Source: Desulfobacter postgatei (lineage in GTDB: Bacteria; Desulfobacterota; Desulfobacteria; Desulfobacterales; Desulfobacteraceae). From it: a stretch of 46,880 nt of DNA. The stretch is taken from the NCBI GenBank assembly GCA_002747145.1, contig PDTI01000024.1, positions 1 through 46,880 of the forward strand, in the 5' to 3' direction. Of this stretch, positions 5,302 through 38,857 are shown piece by piece. The position numbers and the translations under genes are program-made. The notes under the pieces are model-generated. The model was not told the DNA's origin. It did no database searches and worked only from the letters and a program-made list of their open reading frames with translations. Each line of letters begins with the position of its first letter. Position 1 is the stretch's first letter.

Positions 5302-6884
5302 TTTTTTTTAAGAAAAATCCTTGTGAGCATTGCCATTTCCGGATTTGATGTAAGGTGAGCTCCCACCAGGTAGCTGCCGCCCCCGATACTGATGCTGACA
5401 ACAAGGCCTGCGGCCTGAATTACAGGGGAAGACGCCGACCAGAAACTCCATATCCATCGAACAAGAAAGAACATTATAACAGATATGAAAACCGCTCTGC
5501 AAGCGCAAAACAGAACCGCTTTCCCCTGAATTCCAAAAGGCCCGGATGCCCCAAGCAGCATAAATCCGACCACAGCGGACAGGGATACGGCCAGACTCAG
5601 CCCGGTCACACCCATGGACGCCACAAGAAAACGGCACAATACAACATTGCACCCAATGGAGACAACGCCTGCTGTAAACGGCTGCCGGATATTGGACAAC
5701 GCATAATGAAACGCCACAAAAAGCCGGGTGCCGGCAACCGCCCAGAGCCCGAGAAGCATGAACACAAGACATTGGCCGGTCTGGTCCACGGCAGTCAAAT
5801 CAAAGGCCCCCCTGCCGAACAGCAACAGCACAATGGGACGGTTTAACGCAAGGATACCGAATATTGCAGGAATAATTAAAAAAAACACCATGCGGACACC
5901 GGCGTCAAACAACAGGCTGCAATCCTGGGTATCCTGTGCTGGGTCAAAAAAATCTAATTTCCGTACCCGTCCGGTCTGTTTACCGGTTTCCAGGCCGGTC
6001 ATTGCAGAAAGCAGGGGCAACAAAACCGTGGCAATGGGAGAGGCAACCAGGGCCAAGGGAAACTGAACCAGACGTTCGGCATAATTAAGATAAGAGACCG
6101 CGCCCGGATCAAGCGTTGAGGCGGTAAGTGCGGCCACCATCAGATTAATCTGGAAAGCTGCCGCTCCGATCATGGAAGGAGCAAGGATCATAAAGGCTTT
6201 TTTTACCTGGGGGTGCGCCCGGACAAAGACCTTGAGATTGAACATACCAAGTTTTGCAAGGATTGGAATCTGAAAGGCCAGCTGAACAATGCCGCCCACG
6301 GTTACTCCCAGGGCCAGCACGGCAACCTTTGGTGTTACGTAGTTGGAAAACACCACAGCTGCGGTGATCATACAAAGATTGAGCAGAACCGGTGTGACCG
6401 CAGGCACATGGAAGTTTCCCTTTGCATGGAGCACGCTCATGGACAAGGCCAGAAAAAAAATAACGAACATATAGGGCAGCATGATCCTGAACAGCAGACA
6501 GGACAATGTATGGGCATAGGAACCTGCACCATACCCCGGTGCAAAAAAATCAACTAGAAAAGGGGCAAAATAGATCCCTAAACCCACCAGCACCGCCCCT
6601 GCAATGGAGATAAAAAACAGGGCATTTAAAAACAGGGCCGCAGCCTGGTCTTTTTTATTGTGGGCAAACTGTTTGGCAAATAACGGGATGAATGAGATAC
6701 TTAAAATGCCGTCGGACATCATTTTCCGGAGCAGATCAAAGGGTCTGAATGCAATGAAAAAAGCGTCAGAAACCCTGGCGGCACCAAATATAAAGGCAAT
6801 TACGGCATCCCTTATCATGCCAAGTATCCTTGAAAGCAATGTAATTGAACTGATAGATGCTGCTTTTTTGATAAAATGAGCCAC
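5298..6884 (-). CDS. murJ: Lipid II flippase MurJ (MviN)
   Basis: 528 aa, many TM segments, MIRDAVIAFIFGAARVSDAFFIAFRPFDLLRKMMSDG; GTG start. Confidence 0.93.
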   Translation of the reverse strand: MAHFIKKAASISSITLLSRILGMIRDAVIAFIFGAARVSDAFFIAFRPFDLLRKMMSDGILSISFIPLFAKQFAHNKKDQAAALFLNALFFISIAGAVLVGLGIYFAPFLVDFFAPGYGAGSYAHTLSCLLFRIMLPYMFVIFFLALSMSVLHAKGNFHVPAVTPVLLNLCMITAAVVFSNYVTPKVAVLALGVTVGGIVQLAFQIPILAKLGMFNLKVFVRAHPQVKKAFMILAPSMIGAAAFQINLMVAALTASTLDPGAVSYLNYAERLVQFPLALVASPIATVLLPLLSAMTGLETGKQTGRVRKLDFFDPAQDTQDCSLLFDAGVRMVFFLIIPAIFGILALNRPIVLLLFGRGAFDLTAVDQTGQCLVFMLLGLWAVAGTRLFVAFHYALSNIRQPFTAGVVSIGCNVVLCRFLVASMGVTGLSLAVSLSAVVGFMLLGASGPFGIQGKAVLFCACRAVFISVIMFFLVRWIWSFWSASSPVIQAAGLVVSISIGGGSYLVGAHLTSNPEMAMLTRIFLKKK

Positions 6885-6988
6885 AGGTTTTCCTTGACAT
6901 GTTTATCTGTTTTATATATCTTGCTGAATTTGATATAAGTTTTATTATTTATTTTTAATTCACTATTTTATGAAGGAGCTATACCAAG

Positions 6989-7240
6989 TTGGCGAACCAT
7001 AAATCAGCAAAAAAACGCGCAAAACAAAATCAGGTCAGACGGATGAGAAACAAATCCGTAAAAACCTCCCTTAAAACCCTTGAAAAAAAACTTCGTGCAG
7101 CGAAAGAAGCGGGTGAAAATACTGAGGAATTGATGAAAAAGACCCAGTCAGCTATTCACAAGGCGGCTAAAAAGGGTGTTGTTCACAAAAAGACAGCATC
7201 AAGGAAAATCTCAAGACTGTTCAAATTCGTCAACGCATAA
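6989..7240 (+). CDS. rpsT: 30S ribosomal protein S20
   Basis: ANHKSAKKRAKQNQVRRMRNKSVKTSLKTLEKKLRAA; TTG start with upstream GGAG. Confidence 0.96.
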   Translation: MANHKSAKKRAKQNQVRRMRNKSVKTSLKTLEKKLRAAKEAGENTEELMKKTQSAIHKAAKKGVVHKKTASRKISRLFKFVNA

Positions 7241-29533: not shown

Positions 29534-29616
29534 AGAGCTTGTTTGGGAATTAGGGGATCGAAGCGAAATCCCATTTTCATGGGATTGCAGCCGATTCATC
29601 AATTACCTAACAAGCG
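29534..29616. repeat. Family F2 element, compact hairpin copy adjoining the selD stop
   Basis: AGAGCTTGTTTGGGAATTAGGGGATCGAAGCGAAATCCCATTTTCATGGGATTGCAGCCGATTCATCAATTACCTAACAAGCG: two complementary arms around a short loop. Confidence 0.88.
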
Positions 29617-32084: not shown

Positions 32085-33431
32085 TTAGTGCTTAATCATA
32101 TCAGCAATCTGAAACGCCACCTCCAGGCTTTGCTCGGCATTGAGCCGCGGATCACAGGTGGTATCGTATCGATTGTGAAGTTCTTCACTGACAATATTTC
32201 TGGCCCCGCCCACACATTCAGTTACGTTTTTACCGGTCATTTCAAGATGAACGCCTCCCGGCACCGTTCCTTCTGCCCAGTGAATCTCAAAAAACCGGGT
32301 AATCTCCTTTAAAATATCATTAAAATCCCGGGTTTTGTGTCCGGATTGCGATATGTAGGTATTGGCATGCATGGGATCGCAGTTCCACACAATATGATGC
32401 CCCTCTTTTTTAATTTCCCGGAGCAGGTGCGGCAGTTTATTTTGAATATGATCACACCCCATCCGGGTGATCAGGGTCAATCTTCCGGGTTCGTTTTCTG
32501 GATTAAGGGCTTTAATGAGCTGCTTGATGTTATCAATATCATGGTCCGGACCGATTTTAACCCCAATTGGATTGAGCACCCCCTTTAAAAATTCAACATG
32601 GGCACCGTCCAGCTGCCGGGTGCGTTCACCAATCCAAAGCATATGTGCAGAACAATCATACCAGTCCCCGGTGGTGGAATCAATCCGGGTCAACGCCTCT
32701 TCGTAAGGCAGTAAAAGGGCTTCGTGGGAGGTAAAAAACTGGGTTTGATTGATCTGGGAAATATCCGTGGGAATTCCGATTGTATTCATAAACTTTATAG
32801 CCTGATCAATCTGCCTGGCCAGACGGTTATAGGATCGCCCCATGGGGGATTGGGCCACAAATTCCTGGTTCCAGGCCTGGACCCTGTGCAGGGCTGCATA
32901 CCCGCCCCGGGTAAATGCCCGCAAAATGTTCAGGGTGGAGGCAGCCAGATAATACCCCTTAAGCATGTATTTAGGATTCGGGGTGCGCGTGCTGATGGAA
33001 AATTCGTTTCTATTAACCATATCACCACGATATGACGGCAGTTCAACGCCATCAACAGTTTCCGTATCTGACGAACGGGGTTTGGCAAACTGCCCGGCAA
33101 TCCGGCCCACTTTTATGGCTGGTTTTCCACCGGCATAGGCCATAACAACAGCCATCTGCAGTAAAACCTTCATGGTGTCCCTGATGATGGGTGCCGTGAC
33201 TTGGGAAAAATCTTCTGAACAGTCCCCGCCCTGAATCAGAAACGCATCCCCTTTTGCGGCCTTGGCCAGCAGACCCTTTAATGTTCTTATTTCCCCTGCA
33301 AAAACCAGTGGCGGCAGCAACGCCAAATCTTTAGTGACTTTTTCCAACGCTTCTTGATCCGGCCAGTTGGGTTGTTGAAGAGCCGTATAATTTTTCCAAC
33401 TTGATTTTGTCCATCCATTTTGATCTGTCAT
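32085..33431 (-). CDS. 3-deoxy-7-phosphoheptulonate synthase, class II
   Basis: FLIQGGDCSEDF; KVGRIAGQFAKPRS; LPSYRGDMVN; WIGERTRQLDGAHVEFLKGVLNPIGVKIGP; RMGCDHI; WNCDPMHANT; PGGVHLEMTGKNVTECVGG. Confidence 0.95.
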   Translation of the reverse strand: MTDQNGWTKSSWKNYTALQQPNWPDQEALEKVTKDLALLPPLVFAGEIRTLKGLLAKAAKGDAFLIQGGDCSEDFSQVTAPIIRDTMKVLLQMAVVMAYAGGKPAIKVGRIAGQFAKPRSSDTETVDGVELPSYRGDMVNRNEFSISTRTPNPKYMLKGYYLAASTLNILRAFTRGGYAALHRVQAWNQEFVAQSPMGRSYNRLARQIDQAIKFMNTIGIPTDISQINQTQFFTSHEALLLPYEEALTRIDSTTGDWYDCSAHMLWIGERTRQLDGAHVEFLKGVLNPIGVKIGPDHDIDNIKQLIKALNPENEPGRLTLITRMGCDHIQNKLPHLLREIKKEGHHIVWNCDPMHANTYISQSGHKTRDFNDILKEITRFFEIHWAEGTVPGGVHLEMTGKNVTECVGGARNIVSEELHNRYDTTCDPRLNAEQSLEVAFQIADMIKH

Positions 33432-33559
33432 ACTTTATACCATACTTAGTCCTTATTATTTTTATGTGACCCATTGGGAAATCATAATCTTGTATATTTA
33501 GAATGTTTATTGTAAAATTGTAAAGTATAATAGGACGAAATTTTTTTTGGTTAATCCTC

Positions 33560-33722
33560 AGAGATTGTTTGGTAATTGATGAATCGGCTGCAATCTCATG
33601 AAAATGGCCCCAATTCTCTCAAATTTTATGCGAAGAGTCCGGCTATTAACAGAAAATTTGTAAAAATTGGTTCTCATTTTCATGAGATTTCGCTTCGATC
33701 CCCTAATTAGCAAACAAGCTCT
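33560..33722. repeat. Family F2 element, long copy
   Basis: AGAGATTGTTTGGTAATTGATGAATCGGCTGCAATCTCATGAAAATGG...CATTTTCATGAGATTTCGCTTCGATCCCCTAATTAGCAAACAAGCTCT. Confidence 0.88.
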
Positions 33723-33723
33723 T

Positions 33724-33884
33724 AGGCCCATGATCAAAATAAAATCGCCCATCTACTTGTCTTTTAAGTCACTCTCGGCGTTACGCCAAAGGACACATAT
33801 AACCAATATGCGTCCAGTGGCGTGCCTTGATGGTGACTTAAAATCCGGCGTATCTGTGGCAGATTTAATTCTGATCATGGGCCT
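33724..33884 (+). repeat. Family F1 element, full-length copy
   Basis: Nearly identical to 16103-16263 over its whole length, with a few substitutions. Confidence 0.92.
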
Positions 33885-33885
33885 T

Positions 33886-33957
33886 AGAGCGTGTTTGATA
33901 ATTGATGAATCGGCTGCAATCCCATGAAAATGGCCCCAATTTCCCCAAATTTTATGT
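33886..33957 (+). repeat. Family F2 element, left-half copy
   Basis: AGAGCGTGTTTGATAATTGATGAATCGGCTGCAATCCCATGAAAATGGCCCCAATTTCCCCAAATTTTATG matches the left half of 33560-33722. Confidence 0.85.
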
Positions 33958-34191: not shown

Positions 34192-35697
34192 ATGAGGGAT
34201 ATAATGACCCATTCAAAGCTATTGACCATTGCGGATCTGATAGATGAGCTGGATATGGGGAAGGCCACTTTAAAATTCATTTTACGTCGATTCAGCCCAT
34301 GGCTTGCCACACAAATTGTCAACGATGGAACATGTTACACTGAACAGGCGGTTACCACCCTTTTAAAAATCAAAAAGTTTCTGGATGCAGGTATGCTGCC
34401 CCAACAGGTCGAAACTTGCCTTGCACAGGAAGCAGAAATGCTTAACGCCACGGCAAGGGTACAACATTTTACCGACAGTCAAGGGACAATTCCTTTGGAT
34501 AGGGAGGCGGTATCTATGTTCAAGGATCTGTTCCAGGTATATATAAAAAAACAGGACCGTATTGCTTCAGCCCAGGAAGCACTTGCCCGGGTGGAAGAAA
34601 AAAAAGCAAACGCAATGGAAAAACGGGCTGCTGCTGAAGAGAAAAAAGCCGATGCAATGACGAGCATAGCCCTGGCATTGCAAAAGATGCACGAGCAGCG
34701 CAGCGTTGCTCCCCAGGCGATGGAAATTGCCGGACGTGCCATGGAAAGCTTAGCTCTGGAAGAATCAACCAGGCTTGACCAAAGCACTTTGGATACCGGT
34801 TTTGATGAAAATGACCCTCTGCGTGAAGACCCAGATCCATTTAAAGGTCAGGAGCACGAAGATCTTGACGACACCGGTTCTTCCAACATGGATGATCTGT
34901 CTTTATTGACCCATGAAACAGCCCTGACATCTGACGATATTGATGACCTGTCTGCATTGATTAACGATGACTCTGATCCCCACAGCGACCTTAACGATAT
35001 TGAAAGCCTGCTGGAAGAAGCCCCGTCAGCACCAGAGACAAACAATCTGTCAAATGATATGGATAATTTGTCAACATTAGTTGATTCTGATTTGCCTTTG
35101 TCTGATTCCCCAGATATTAGAGGTCACAATGAAGACGGCCTTGATGATCTGTTCAGTCTTGTGGATATGGATACCGATGCCCCAAAGGATCTGAATGAAG
35201 ATCTGGATGATTTGTCCAAGCTTATTGCGCCTGACGGTGAAAAGGCTGTTGAGGACTTAGATGATTTATCCGTCCTGATTAAAGCGCCACAGCCCCAGGA
35301 ACCTGTGGATGATCTGTCCAAGCTTATTGAGTCTGAAAATGATGAGCCAACCAGCGATGTAGATGATCTTTGGCCCCTGGTCTGTGATGCAGATCGTTCA
35401 CACAAAGAAGTCCAAAGCCCGGCTGAACAGTCAGCTGATGCGCCTGGGATGGATAACCTGTCTGCGCTGATTGATGACACACCCTCAATAAAACCGGATA
35501 TTTCGCCAGATCAGGATATGAAAGCATACAAGGCTGCTATCATGAAAATCATTATTGAATTAAAGGAACAAGGCCTGACAGCCAAACAGACAACGGATCA
35601 GCTCAACCGGGATGATGTCGCCACCCTGTCCGGAAAACCCGCCTGGGGCTTAAAAGCCGTGGAAAAAATTTATGGGTTTATTGATTCTGCAAAATAA
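34192..35697 (+). CDS. MerR-like HTH / coiled-coil / acidic DDLSxLI-repeat protein with recombinase-like C-terminal helix domain
   Basis: N-term LLTIADLIDELDMGKATLKFILRRFSPWLATQIVNDGTCYTEQAVTTLLKIKKFLDAGMLPQQVE; about ten DDLSxLI-type motifs; C-term MKIIIELKEQGLTAKQTTDQLNRDDVATLSGKPAWGLKAVEKIYGFI. Function unknown. Confidence 0.8.
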   Translation: MRDIMTHSKLLTIADLIDELDMGKATLKFILRRFSPWLATQIVNDGTCYTEQAVTTLLKIKKFLDAGMLPQQVETCLAQEAEMLNATARVQHFTDSQGTIPLDREAVSMFKDLFQVYIKKQDRIASAQEALARVEEKKANAMEKRAAAEEKKADAMTSIALALQKMHEQRSVAPQAMEIAGRAMESLALEESTRLDQSTLDTGFDENDPLREDPDPFKGQEHEDLDDTGSSNMDDLSLLTHETALTSDDIDDLSALINDDSDPHSDLNDIESLLEEAPSAPETNNLSNDMDNLSTLVDSDLPLSDSPDIRGHNEDGLDDLFSLVDMDTDAPKDLNEDLDDLSKLIAPDGEKAVEDLDDLSVLIKAPQPQEPVDDLSKLIESENDEPTSDVDDLWPLVCDADRSHKEVQSPAEQSADAPGMDNLSALIDDTPSIKPDISPDQDMKAYKAAIMKIIIELKEQGLTAKQTTDQLNRDDVATLSGKPAWGLKAVEKIYGFIDSAK

Positions 35698-35745: not shown

Positions 35746-36684
35746 TTATTTTGCCCCTGCCGCGTCGGCGAAACGCGTATCCACAAAGTCATCCAGATCA
35801 ATAAGGGAAGTCATAATATTCATTTTATCCATCATATATTTCTGAATTATATCAAGATCTTCTTTTTGGGGATAAAGTTCTCCTGTCAGAATCCGGTCAG
35901 GCGGATCTGTAAGCACCCGTCTGATAATATCCCTATCCTGGGAAAAAAACTCAGCACCAATAATTGAAGCCGGCTCAGGCTGTGAATCAATGGCAAGTCC
36001 GGACCGTACAAAACTTGTGCAGATTTCCTGAATAGCTTCGGGATTATTTTCAATCACCTCGGAACGCATGACAAAAACACAACAGGGGTGCTTGGCCCAC
36101 AAATTTTTTGACAGCTCAAATTCTTCTCCATGCCCGGCTGCGATCACCTGGGAACCAAATGGTTCAGCGACGATAAACCCGCCGATTTCGCCCTCTTCGT
36201 CATACTCAAGGGCTTCGGGCATCTGGAAAGGCGCAACAACCTCAAGGGTAACATCAATTCCCTTTTCCGTGGCACGTCCGGGTTTCAACCCTTTCTCGGA
36301 TAACAGTTTGTGAAACAGCATATTGTGGATGGAGAGCTGATATGGAATCAAAACGGTCTTACCCGCGAAATCTTCAACGGAATTGATGCTGGCTCTTTTG
36401 TTTTTAACCAGAACACTGCCTGATTTATGGGCCAGCAACAGCAGTTTAAGATCAACACCGGCTTTGAAAAGATCCATGGCTGTTGGTGCCAGAACCAAAG
36501 CCCCGTCCAGGGATTTCACAGCAAGCGCATCAGCAACTTCATTCCACCCGTTTTTAACCACAGGTTCCAGTGTGCAGTGTTGAAAGGTTTCCATACGTTG
36601 TTGCAATTTTCGAGCTGTTACACCGAGAATGAAATGATCAGTGATTTTAAGATATCCGATCTTGATCGCGGGCTTTTCCGCCAT
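35746..36684 (-). CDS. NrtA/SsuA-like substrate-binding protein fold without recognisable signal peptide
   Basis: IKIGYLKITDHFILGVTARKL...VEDFAGKTVLIPYQLSIHNMLFHKLLSEKGLKPG...GFIVAEPFGSQVIAAGHGEEF...LWAKHPCCVFVMR. Confidence 0.75.
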   Translation of the reverse strand: MAEKPAIKIGYLKITDHFILGVTARKLQQRMETFQHCTLEPVVKNGWNEVADALAVKSLDGALVLAPTAMDLFKAGVDLKLLLLAHKSGSVLVKNKRASINSVEDFAGKTVLIPYQLSIHNMLFHKLLSEKGLKPGRATEKGIDVTLEVVAPFQMPEALEYDEEGEIGGFIVAEPFGSQVIAAGHGEEFELSKNLWAKHPCCVFVMRSEVIENNPEAIQEICTSFVRSGLAIDSQPEPASIIGAEFFSQDRDIIRRVLTDPPDRILTGELYPQKEDLDIIQKYMMDKMNIMTSLIDLDDFVDTRFADAAGAK

Positions 36685-37543: not shown

Positions 37544-38857
37544 TTAAATCAAATAACTTAATTCACTGGGCAAGGGAATACCCTTACCCATATGGTCTTC
37601 GCCGTAATTGACGCCGGAAAGGATTTTTAAATCATTCAACGCTCTGGAATCTCCCTCAAAGACGACCGTCTCAATCTTCTCTTTTTTAATTTTTCCCCCG
37701 GCCCACTGGATATCAAGGACCGAGGATGCATCAAACTGATCTTCTCCCACATGAAGCTTAACTTCGCCGCCATAATATTGAACGATTTTTGCCACCAAAA
37801 GGCTTGGTCGGCTGTGAAAGCCCCTGTCTTTGGGAATTCCCACTTCAATTGTGCCCGATTCCATATTGTCATTTAAAACCTTTGTAGCCACAGCCTTGCC
37901 CGAGGATAAAAAGCGGCCTGCATAATATAAACAATAATTCATGGCACGGTCCAGAACAGCATCCGGATCAATGAGATCGCCAAGGGACAAAGTGATGTGC
38001 TTATAAACTTGTTTAAAACCGGTATCATACAGGTGGCGTTCATAAAAATGAAGTAAACGTCCTAACACCTGAAGAATATGAAATACGATGGAAAAATGAC
38101 TGCGCAACTGGCTTAAAAGTGATGCATCAGGGGATTGCAACGTCGTGACCACATAGGAATCAAAGGAAGACTGAATATTATGCACCCGCATCTCATAGCT
38201 TCTGATTGTCACCTCGTTGATAACATCAGGGACAAGCTTGTAGATGGTTTCAAGGTCATAACGTTCATAAAAGGTAAATTGTTCAAAGTCCCGGATCAGT
38301 TCAAGAAACTGACTGGCGATTCGTGTCAGATTTTTTTTCTGATCCTTTTTGGGCATGGCGTCGTCAATATTATGTTCCAGCTGACTGGCCGTGGCAATGC
38401 CCGGGAAATAGTTCAGGTCATATTCGGATTCCGGAATCGTGATTTCCAAACGTTTTGCCTCCCCCAAGGCAACAGGTGCAGCCTGGTGAATCGCATCCTG
38501 GAGAAATTGAAGCATATCCAGTGCTTCCTGTTTAAAGGCAGTGTGATTCTGATCCCCGAAATTGTAAAAATCGAACCGGTCCAGGGTGTGACGCTGGGAA
38601 TAACAGGCAAGGGAAAGGTGTCGAATTGCTGCTGAAATGGCACGGTAAAACACCCAGTCCTTATTTTTCTTTGCACCATGAAAGTCAAGAAAATCTTCCA
38701 TGATGTGGGAGGTGATTATCAATTTTGAGCAAAGCTTTTTGGTAAAAAGATAGTCGGTGTCGTCATTCAATCCAATAATGAACAAAATACATTGAAGATA
38801 CTCATGTGAAAAGATATTTGCTTTTTCTTTAAACGATATGTCACAGGTGTTATTCAT
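37544..38857 (-). CDS. Large uncharacterised domain fused to C-terminal HPr-like domain
   Basis: C-term VGIPKDRGFHSRPSLLVAKIVQYYGGEVKLHVGEDQFDASSVLDIQWAGGKIKKEKIETVVFEGDSRALNDLKIL (HPr-like His site FHSRPS); N-terminal ~340 aa not recognised. Confidence 0.75.
   Translation of the reverse strand: MNNTCDISFKEKANIFSHEYLQCILFIIGLNDDTDYLFTKKLCSKLIITSHIMEDFLDFHGAKKNKDWVFYRAISAAIRHLSLACYSQRHTLDRFDFYNFGDQNHTAFKQEALDMLQFLQDAIHQAAPVALGEAKRLEITIPESEYDLNYFPGIATASQLEHNIDDAMPKKDQKKNLTRIASQFLELIRDFEQFTFYERYDLETIYKLVPDVINEVTIRSYEMRVHNIQSSFDSYVVTTLQSPDASLLSQLRSHFSIVFHILQVLGRLLHFYERHLYDTGFKQVYKHITLSLGDLIDPDAVLDRAMNYCLYYAGRFLSSGKAVATKVLNDNMESGTIEVGIPKDRGFHSRPSLLVAKIVQYYGGEVKLHVGEDQFDASSVLDIQWAGGKIKKEKIETVVFEGDSRALNDLKILSGVNYGEDHMGKGIPLPSELSYLI

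Follow-up and report, generated by a model that had tools for sequence, protein, structure and literature searches.

What purpose is served by a protein in which some ten copies of a short acidic peptide are set between two ends that resemble DNA-binding domains? The question is raised by an open reading frame of 501 amino acids from Desulfobacter postgatei, found within a stretch of 46,880 nucleotides (contig PDTI01000024.1, assembly GCA_002747145.1), the whole of which is referred to here as the window. A preliminary description of this DNA had listed ten motif strings of the DDLSxLI type between a MerR-like head and a recombinase-like tail, and had read the product as a DNA-tethered scaffold that offers many copies of a binding motif to a partner. 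All ten strings are present in the frame. That the protein has the anatomy set out below, and that its motif is under selection, is virtually certain; the function proposed for it, as a scaffold of a chemosensory pathway, is put forward tentatively.

Organization of the Protein

The product of 34192-35697 yielded nothing useful in NCBIfam, PHROGs, PADLOC or PDB sequence searches, and no characterised family in these collections or in Pfam covers it, so that assignment to one, named beforehand as telling against the earlier reading, was not obtained; PADLOC (5027 models, E up to 1) matched it to no known anti-phage defence protein. It represents an undescribed protein family assembled from known kinds of parts (Table 1). 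Residue 5 is its likely start, since a Shine-Dalgarno-like GAGG lies just 5' of the ATG at 34204 and many orthologues begin at this methionine.

The N-terminal winged helix-turn-helix is of the MerR type by profile and by fold. Its match to Pfam MerR_1 (E=2.8e-4, 21.4 bits) lies marginally under the gathering cut-off of 21.6, and a profile of the head run against PDB sequences matched TnrA (0.0015), CarH (0.009), and RacA (0.15). In an AlphaFold (AF2) model built on 40 aligned relatives, pLDDT exceeds 90 over most of the head, and its closest folds in Foldseek were RacA (TMt 0.75-0.79 at rmsd 1.6-1.8) and GlnR (TMt 0.72), with other MerR regulators also matched. Disorder over most of the model keeps the Foldseek E-values of the complete structure weak (0.02-0.05), yet the matches agree. 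The head is followed by a long coiled-coil helix, in which Q117, E125, A135, A137, A142, E145, and K148 of alignment A2 are invariant; a MerR-like DNA-binding domain leading into a coiled coil, as in RacA, was thus recovered by both AF2 and Foldseek.

At the other end of the protein, a three-helix tail was modelled with a pLDDT of 95.5 (confident about residues 443-500). Its top five Foldseek matches are all serine integrases, the best with a TMq of 0.57 and an rmsd of 1.6 across 51 residues (E about 2), and weak sequence matches were found to Pfam Recombinase (PF07508; E=0.035 over residues 447-493, under the cut-off) and, by profile, to residues 205-242 of YokA (E=0.16). These results support a predicted resemblance to the DNA-binding part of the large serine integrases (SPbeta YokA, Bxb1; PF07508), although only about 60 residues are in common and no catalytic resolvase domain was detected in the protein by Pfam at E-values up to 10. 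Neither head nor tail is strongly basic. Both end assignments of the preliminary description are therefore supported by profile and fold matches, that of the tail less firmly than that of the head. A Pfam match to TPR_20 (E=0.43) was discounted, as it falls in the disordered part of the protein.

Table 1. Coordinates of the protein, its parts, its convergent neighbour, and the related fusion proteins. Positions are those of the window unless a locus is named.
Feature	Position	Strand	Basis or remark
Whole open reading frame, 501 aa	34192..35697	+	true start probably at 34204 (Met5)
MerR-like winged helix-turn-helix head, residues 12-92	34225..34467	+	Pfam, AF2, Foldseek
Long coiled-coil helix, residues 104-170, repeated R/E-K-A-x-A pattern	34501..34701	+	AF2 helix
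Disordered acidic linker bearing the motif array, residues 191-439	34762..35508	+	pLDDT, composition
Motif 1, MDDLSLLT	34888..34911	+	
Motif 2, IDDLSALI	34939..34962	+	
Motif 3, LNDIESLL, relaxed copy	34990..35013	+	direct reading
Motif 4, MDNLSTLV	35059..35082	+	
Motif 5, LDDLFSLV	35140..35163	+	
Motif 6, LDDLSKLI	35203..35226	+	
Motif 7, LDDLSVLI	35257..35280	+	
Motif 8, VDDLSKLI	35305..35328	+	
Motif 9, VDDLWPLV	35359..35382	+	
Motif 10, MDNLSALI	35449..35472	+	
Three-helix tail, residues 440-501, conserved SGKxxW and I-Y-x-x-I	35509..35694	+	AF2, Foldseek, profile
NMT1_2 (SsuA/NrtA-like) ligand-binding protein, convergent neighbour	35746..36684	-	Pfam NMT1_2 5.3e-32
REC-NMT1_2-CheW fusion	L246:1776-3752	-	
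REC-NMT1_2-CheW fusion	L249:2395-4380	-	
REC-NMT1_2-CheW fusion	L250:1827-4022	+	
REC-NMT1_2-CheW fusion	L251:1612-3624	+	
REC-NMT1_2-CheW fusion	L247:1968-5567	+	

The Motif Array

Between the coiled coil and the tail lies a linker with pLDDT values below 50 over most of residues 191-428, a D+E content of 30%, and a net charge of -62. With strict copies defined by the pattern [DNE][DN]L[STWFGADN]x[LMF][LIVAT], it holds nine of these and one relaxed copy (LNDIESLLEE), the consensus being [LIM]DDLSxL[IV]; 300 shuffles of the linker's own composition gave a mean of 0.07 copies and a maximum of one. Starts of successive copies are 16-40 residues apart. Among 287 copies from 40 relatives, L2 is invariant, D0 is found in 283, L5 in 285, and V, I, or L at position +6 in 282, while position -1 is usually hydrophobic. 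Judged from the sequence, this pattern would form an amphipathic helix with an acidic face.

The earlier claim that the motif is conserved, and not a long repeat, is borne out by comparison of 10 congeneric sequences: identity is 0.84 in the motif and 0.87 in the tail vs 0.54 in the spacers, and the synonymous share of codon changes is 0.61 and 0.62 vs 0.25, respectively. The motif codons are under purifying selection, unlike those of the spacers. Moreover, near-exact tandem units of 14, 15, 18, or 19 residues occur in different lineages, each retaining the motif core; as tandem arrays of differing unit length arose separately, it is the peptide itself that is selected. The preliminary description had also called for a search for the motif in other proteins. 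Scans of 12 genomes with degenerate patterns revealed no second array in any other protein, and single copies were scattered matches only, those frames that were read being unrelated globular proteins or antisense frames.

These data bear on whether the linker might simply mimic DNA and so autoinhibit the DNA-binding ends, with the motif a mere helix-forming spacer. The net charge of the linker, which ranges from -24 to -111 across relatives, would suit such a role, but that role would call for acidity alone and not for the exact L2/L5 pattern, and it is the spacers that lose sequence and not the motifs; this explanation is regarded as very improbable.

Distribution of the Family

The array is retained by relatives from no fewer than five families of a single order of sulfate reducers, the Desulfobacterales, usually with 4-12 copies vs approximately 0.1 expected, so that its loss in orthologues, named beforehand as grounds for abandoning the reading, was not what was found. 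In the first set of related genomes, 26 of the 58 others contain such a protein, and more were found in further families of the same order. Among 297 genomes of the phylum, no full-length relative was detected outside the order; head-like or tail-like pieces alone were found there, in shorter proteins, and those read had no array. Within the order, the motif has drifted to DNLWxLV in one family (L161-L166), and one relative (L160 of genome G123; 5943-7130, minus strand) has two decayed copies only, TDDLVDLI and TDDLADLI.

Two distant relatives, L167 and L225, have lost the MerR head and kept the coiled coil, array, and tail. The head is thus not essential to the family and was rejected as its defining part. 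Other proteins have the tail and no motifs. Two identical copies in L060 (4936-5901 and 10683-11648, both on the minus strand), 5.7 kb apart, and one in L189 (4605-6182, plus strand) join a MerR-like head to the same tail. Proteins of about 200 amino acids (L177-L188, L193-L196, L239; e.g., L178:4680-5255, plus strand) are widespread in the Desulfobacterota and read M[ND]DFLxxLR...coiled coil...FSGRGKWHAQTIHRLC, with a coiled coil and tail of the type described here. Array and tail are therefore separable modules, as L060, L189, and L177-L196 carry the tail without the array.

The last point weighs on a further possibility, that the motifs dock on the protein's own head or tail and so build a network or condensate on DNA with no separate partner. 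No parts of the protein are more constrained than the tail and the motif, which are always together, as self-assembly would have it. Nonetheless, tails of the same kind exist without motifs (L060, L177-L196), and AF2 modelled the motifs as disordered (pLDDT no higher than about 50) and showed no ordered contact between them and the head or tail; self-assembly is accordingly thought improbable.

Gene Neighborhood

The convergent neighbour in the window encodes an NMT1_2 protein that begins MAEKPAIKIG; a signal peptide is not evident by eye and the protein is read as cytosolic. Across most of the genus, its sequence identity is 93-96%. An NMT1_2 gene adjoins the array gene in 40 of 47 examined loci from several families, tail-to-tail in nearly all and often with fewer than 10 bases between them. 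In L167 the pair is head-to-head, and hence their adjacency has survived a rearrangement. In one genus (g2; L058, L059, L176) the NMT1_2 gene lies at another site, and the array gene stands directly 5' of cheW on the same strand, an order also seen by coordinates in G173, G631, and G633. Neighbours differ in family f31, where a protein with a cNMP-binding domain is encoded (L157, L159) or, next to the decayed array of L160, one that is PilZ-like by eye and has no Pfam match; the genome of L160 has no NMT1_2 homologue.

The two kinds of neighbour are brought together by gene fusions. NMT1_2 is fused to receiver domains as REC-NMT1_2 in L217 and L218; five further proteins have the form REC-NMT1_2-CheW (Table 1), among them that of L247, in which two REC-NMT1_2 units accompany CheW. 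The CheW linked to the array gene in g2 shares 53-65% identity with its counterpart in these fusions. Two different neighbours of the array gene are thus joined elsewhere in one signalling protein. The domain order of the REC-NMT1_2-CheW proteins suggests CheV-like adaptors with a built-in solute-binding domain, and a literature search turned up no description of such fusions. Like CheV, a CheW-REC adaptor (PMC12691637), these paralogues of the neighbour join CheW and REC, but they hold NMT1_2 between the two; the array protein itself has none of these domains, a Pfam scan having found no MCP signalling, CheW, or REC domain in it.

A MerR-like head beside a gene for a ligand-binding protein, together with the similarity in fold to GlnR and further MerR regulators seen in Foldseek, could be expected of a MerR-family transcription regulator, the head of which binds promoters of NMT1_2 or of chemosensory genes while the acidic motifs recruit RNA polymerase or a coactivator in the manner of an acidic activation domain. 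This is considered unlikely. A local regulator would be expected to be divergent from its target, whereas nearly every genome has the array gene and NMT1_2 in convergent orientation; ten strongly constrained, freely spaced copies are unusual for bacterial activators; L167 and L225 dropped the head and kept array and tail; and, where a MerR regulator would have a C-terminal effector-sensing domain or act on a promoter by distorting DNA, no known effector domain was found in the protein by the domain searches.

Several other features of the locus were recorded. In most of the family the array gene is divergent from a prkA operon (e.g., L034:248-5553), the next genes of which are DUF444- and SpoVR-like by eye; in the window, a DAHP synthase gene (32085-33431, minus strand) takes its place through a local rearrangement. 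A 75-nt direct repeat (33556-33630 and 33882-33956, 89% identical) and a 56-nt inverted-repeat pair between 33696 and 33912, with a further core copy on the minus strand at 29583-29605, lie upstream of the array gene and look like a small repetitive element. The gene at 37544-38857 (minus strand) encodes a conserved 437-amino-acid protein with no Pfam match and a C-terminus that is HPr-like by eye, and its order with ispD is conserved in the family. A plasmid or phage origin of the array gene was considered and rejected: there was no tblastn match, and the neighbours are housekeeping genes in an order conserved in the family.

Co-Occurrence With Chemosensory Genes

Among 86 genomes of the family, which are related and not phylogenetically independent and include incomplete MAGs, both the array protein and NMT1_2 were found in 54 and neither in 27, with the array protein alone in two and NMT1_2 alone in three. 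In the two genera that vary (g13 and g14), there was no discordance in 32 genomes that were at least 80% complete; because the genes are adjacent, their joint loss can be a single deletion. The median number of CheW matches in the 86 genomes is 11 with the array protein vs 1.5 without it, and of the genomes at least 80% complete, all 46 that have the protein contain at least four CheW matches vs 8 of 24 that do not, a correlation that may be a proxy for lifestyle. FliM tracks the protein less closely (42 of 46 vs 8 of 24 in the same completeness class). The protein is an accessory to chemosensing and not essential to it, as genomes G020, G084, and G644 are rich in CheW and lack it.

This distribution is relevant to a role in organizing the chromosome or anchoring it at the pole. 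RacA, a chromosome-anchoring protein that binds polar DivIVA and ram sites, is composed of a MerR-like helix-turn-helix and a coiled coil, and it is among the closest folds to the head. With DNA-binding ends acting as in RacA, the motifs would bind a polar or ParA-type partner, and acidic repeats of this sort have a counterpart in HubP/FimV, polar scaffolds that typically have long acidic cytoplasmic regions as recruitment platforms (PMC12918733). The array protein differs from RacA in adding an integrase-like tail and a disordered, motif-bearing region of approximately 240 residues. It differs from HubP/FimV in that its ends are DNA-binding-like and in that it has no LysM or FimV domain (Pfam), no TPR in the AF2 model, and no transmembrane segment by eye. 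It is also missing from many relatives within the same genera and co-varies with CheW and NMT1_2, which would be unexpected for a housekeeping segregation factor; there appears to be little likelihood of such a role.

Proposed Function

The protein is proposed to be a DNA-docked multivalent scaffold of a chemosensory pathway in the Desulfobacterales, the mechanism as a whole being held with somewhat less than even confidence. The MerR-like head and the serine-integrase-like tail would dock it on DNA, and the coiled coil would oligomerise it. The acidic linker would then display its roughly ten amphipathic [LIM]DDLSxL[IV] peptides, each docking one copy of the partner, such that cytosolic signalling proteins would be concentrated as a cluster on the nucleoid. 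This partner would be a component of the neighbouring and co-occurring NMT1_2/CheW/receiver module, to which, on the strength of linkage and co-occurrence, it most likely belongs. The anatomy and motif conservation given in the preliminary description thus stand; its DNA-tethered scaffold is plausible only, DNA binding being presumed and the head absent from L167 and L225. The chemosensory link is new in the present analysis.

Within the module, CheY is only one candidate partner beside CheW and NMT1_2. The EIDALL motif of FliM/FliY, which binds CheY-P (PMC9126983), is likewise a short acidic-amphipathic helix with a DExxxLL-like register by eye, but it is present as a single copy vs the array seen here. 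Alluring as the likeness is, similarity of the motif to the FliM peptide is weak and kept as a lead only, since the FliM peptide scores near background with the motif profile: the score is -8 for FliM of E. coli and about 0 for local FliM, vs a median of 25 for true copies, and the score of the local FliM N-termini is reached by 0.7-2.4% of background N-termini.

A precedent is FrzCD of Myxococcus xanthus, which is nucleoid-bound and draws signalling complexes to that site (PMC5716589), as the proposed role would likewise assemble a chemosensory cluster on the nucleoid. However, FrzCD is a receptor that binds DNA by a basic tail; the array protein has neither receptor domain nor basic tail and has a peptide array instead. 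It may even, though this is more doubtful, represent a new class of protein, a DNA-anchored coiled-coil organiser whose ten-fold array of one new short linear motif gathers cytosolic NMT1_2/CheW/receiver proteins into nucleoid clusters and is re-expanded independently in different lineages to tune valency.

Few large bacterial proteins have been recognised in which a single short docking motif is repeated many times. If the proposal is true, DDLSxLI would provide a defined peptide for fishing out the partner, and the family would offer a second route, besides that of FrzCD, for the placement of chemosensory clusters on the nucleoid.
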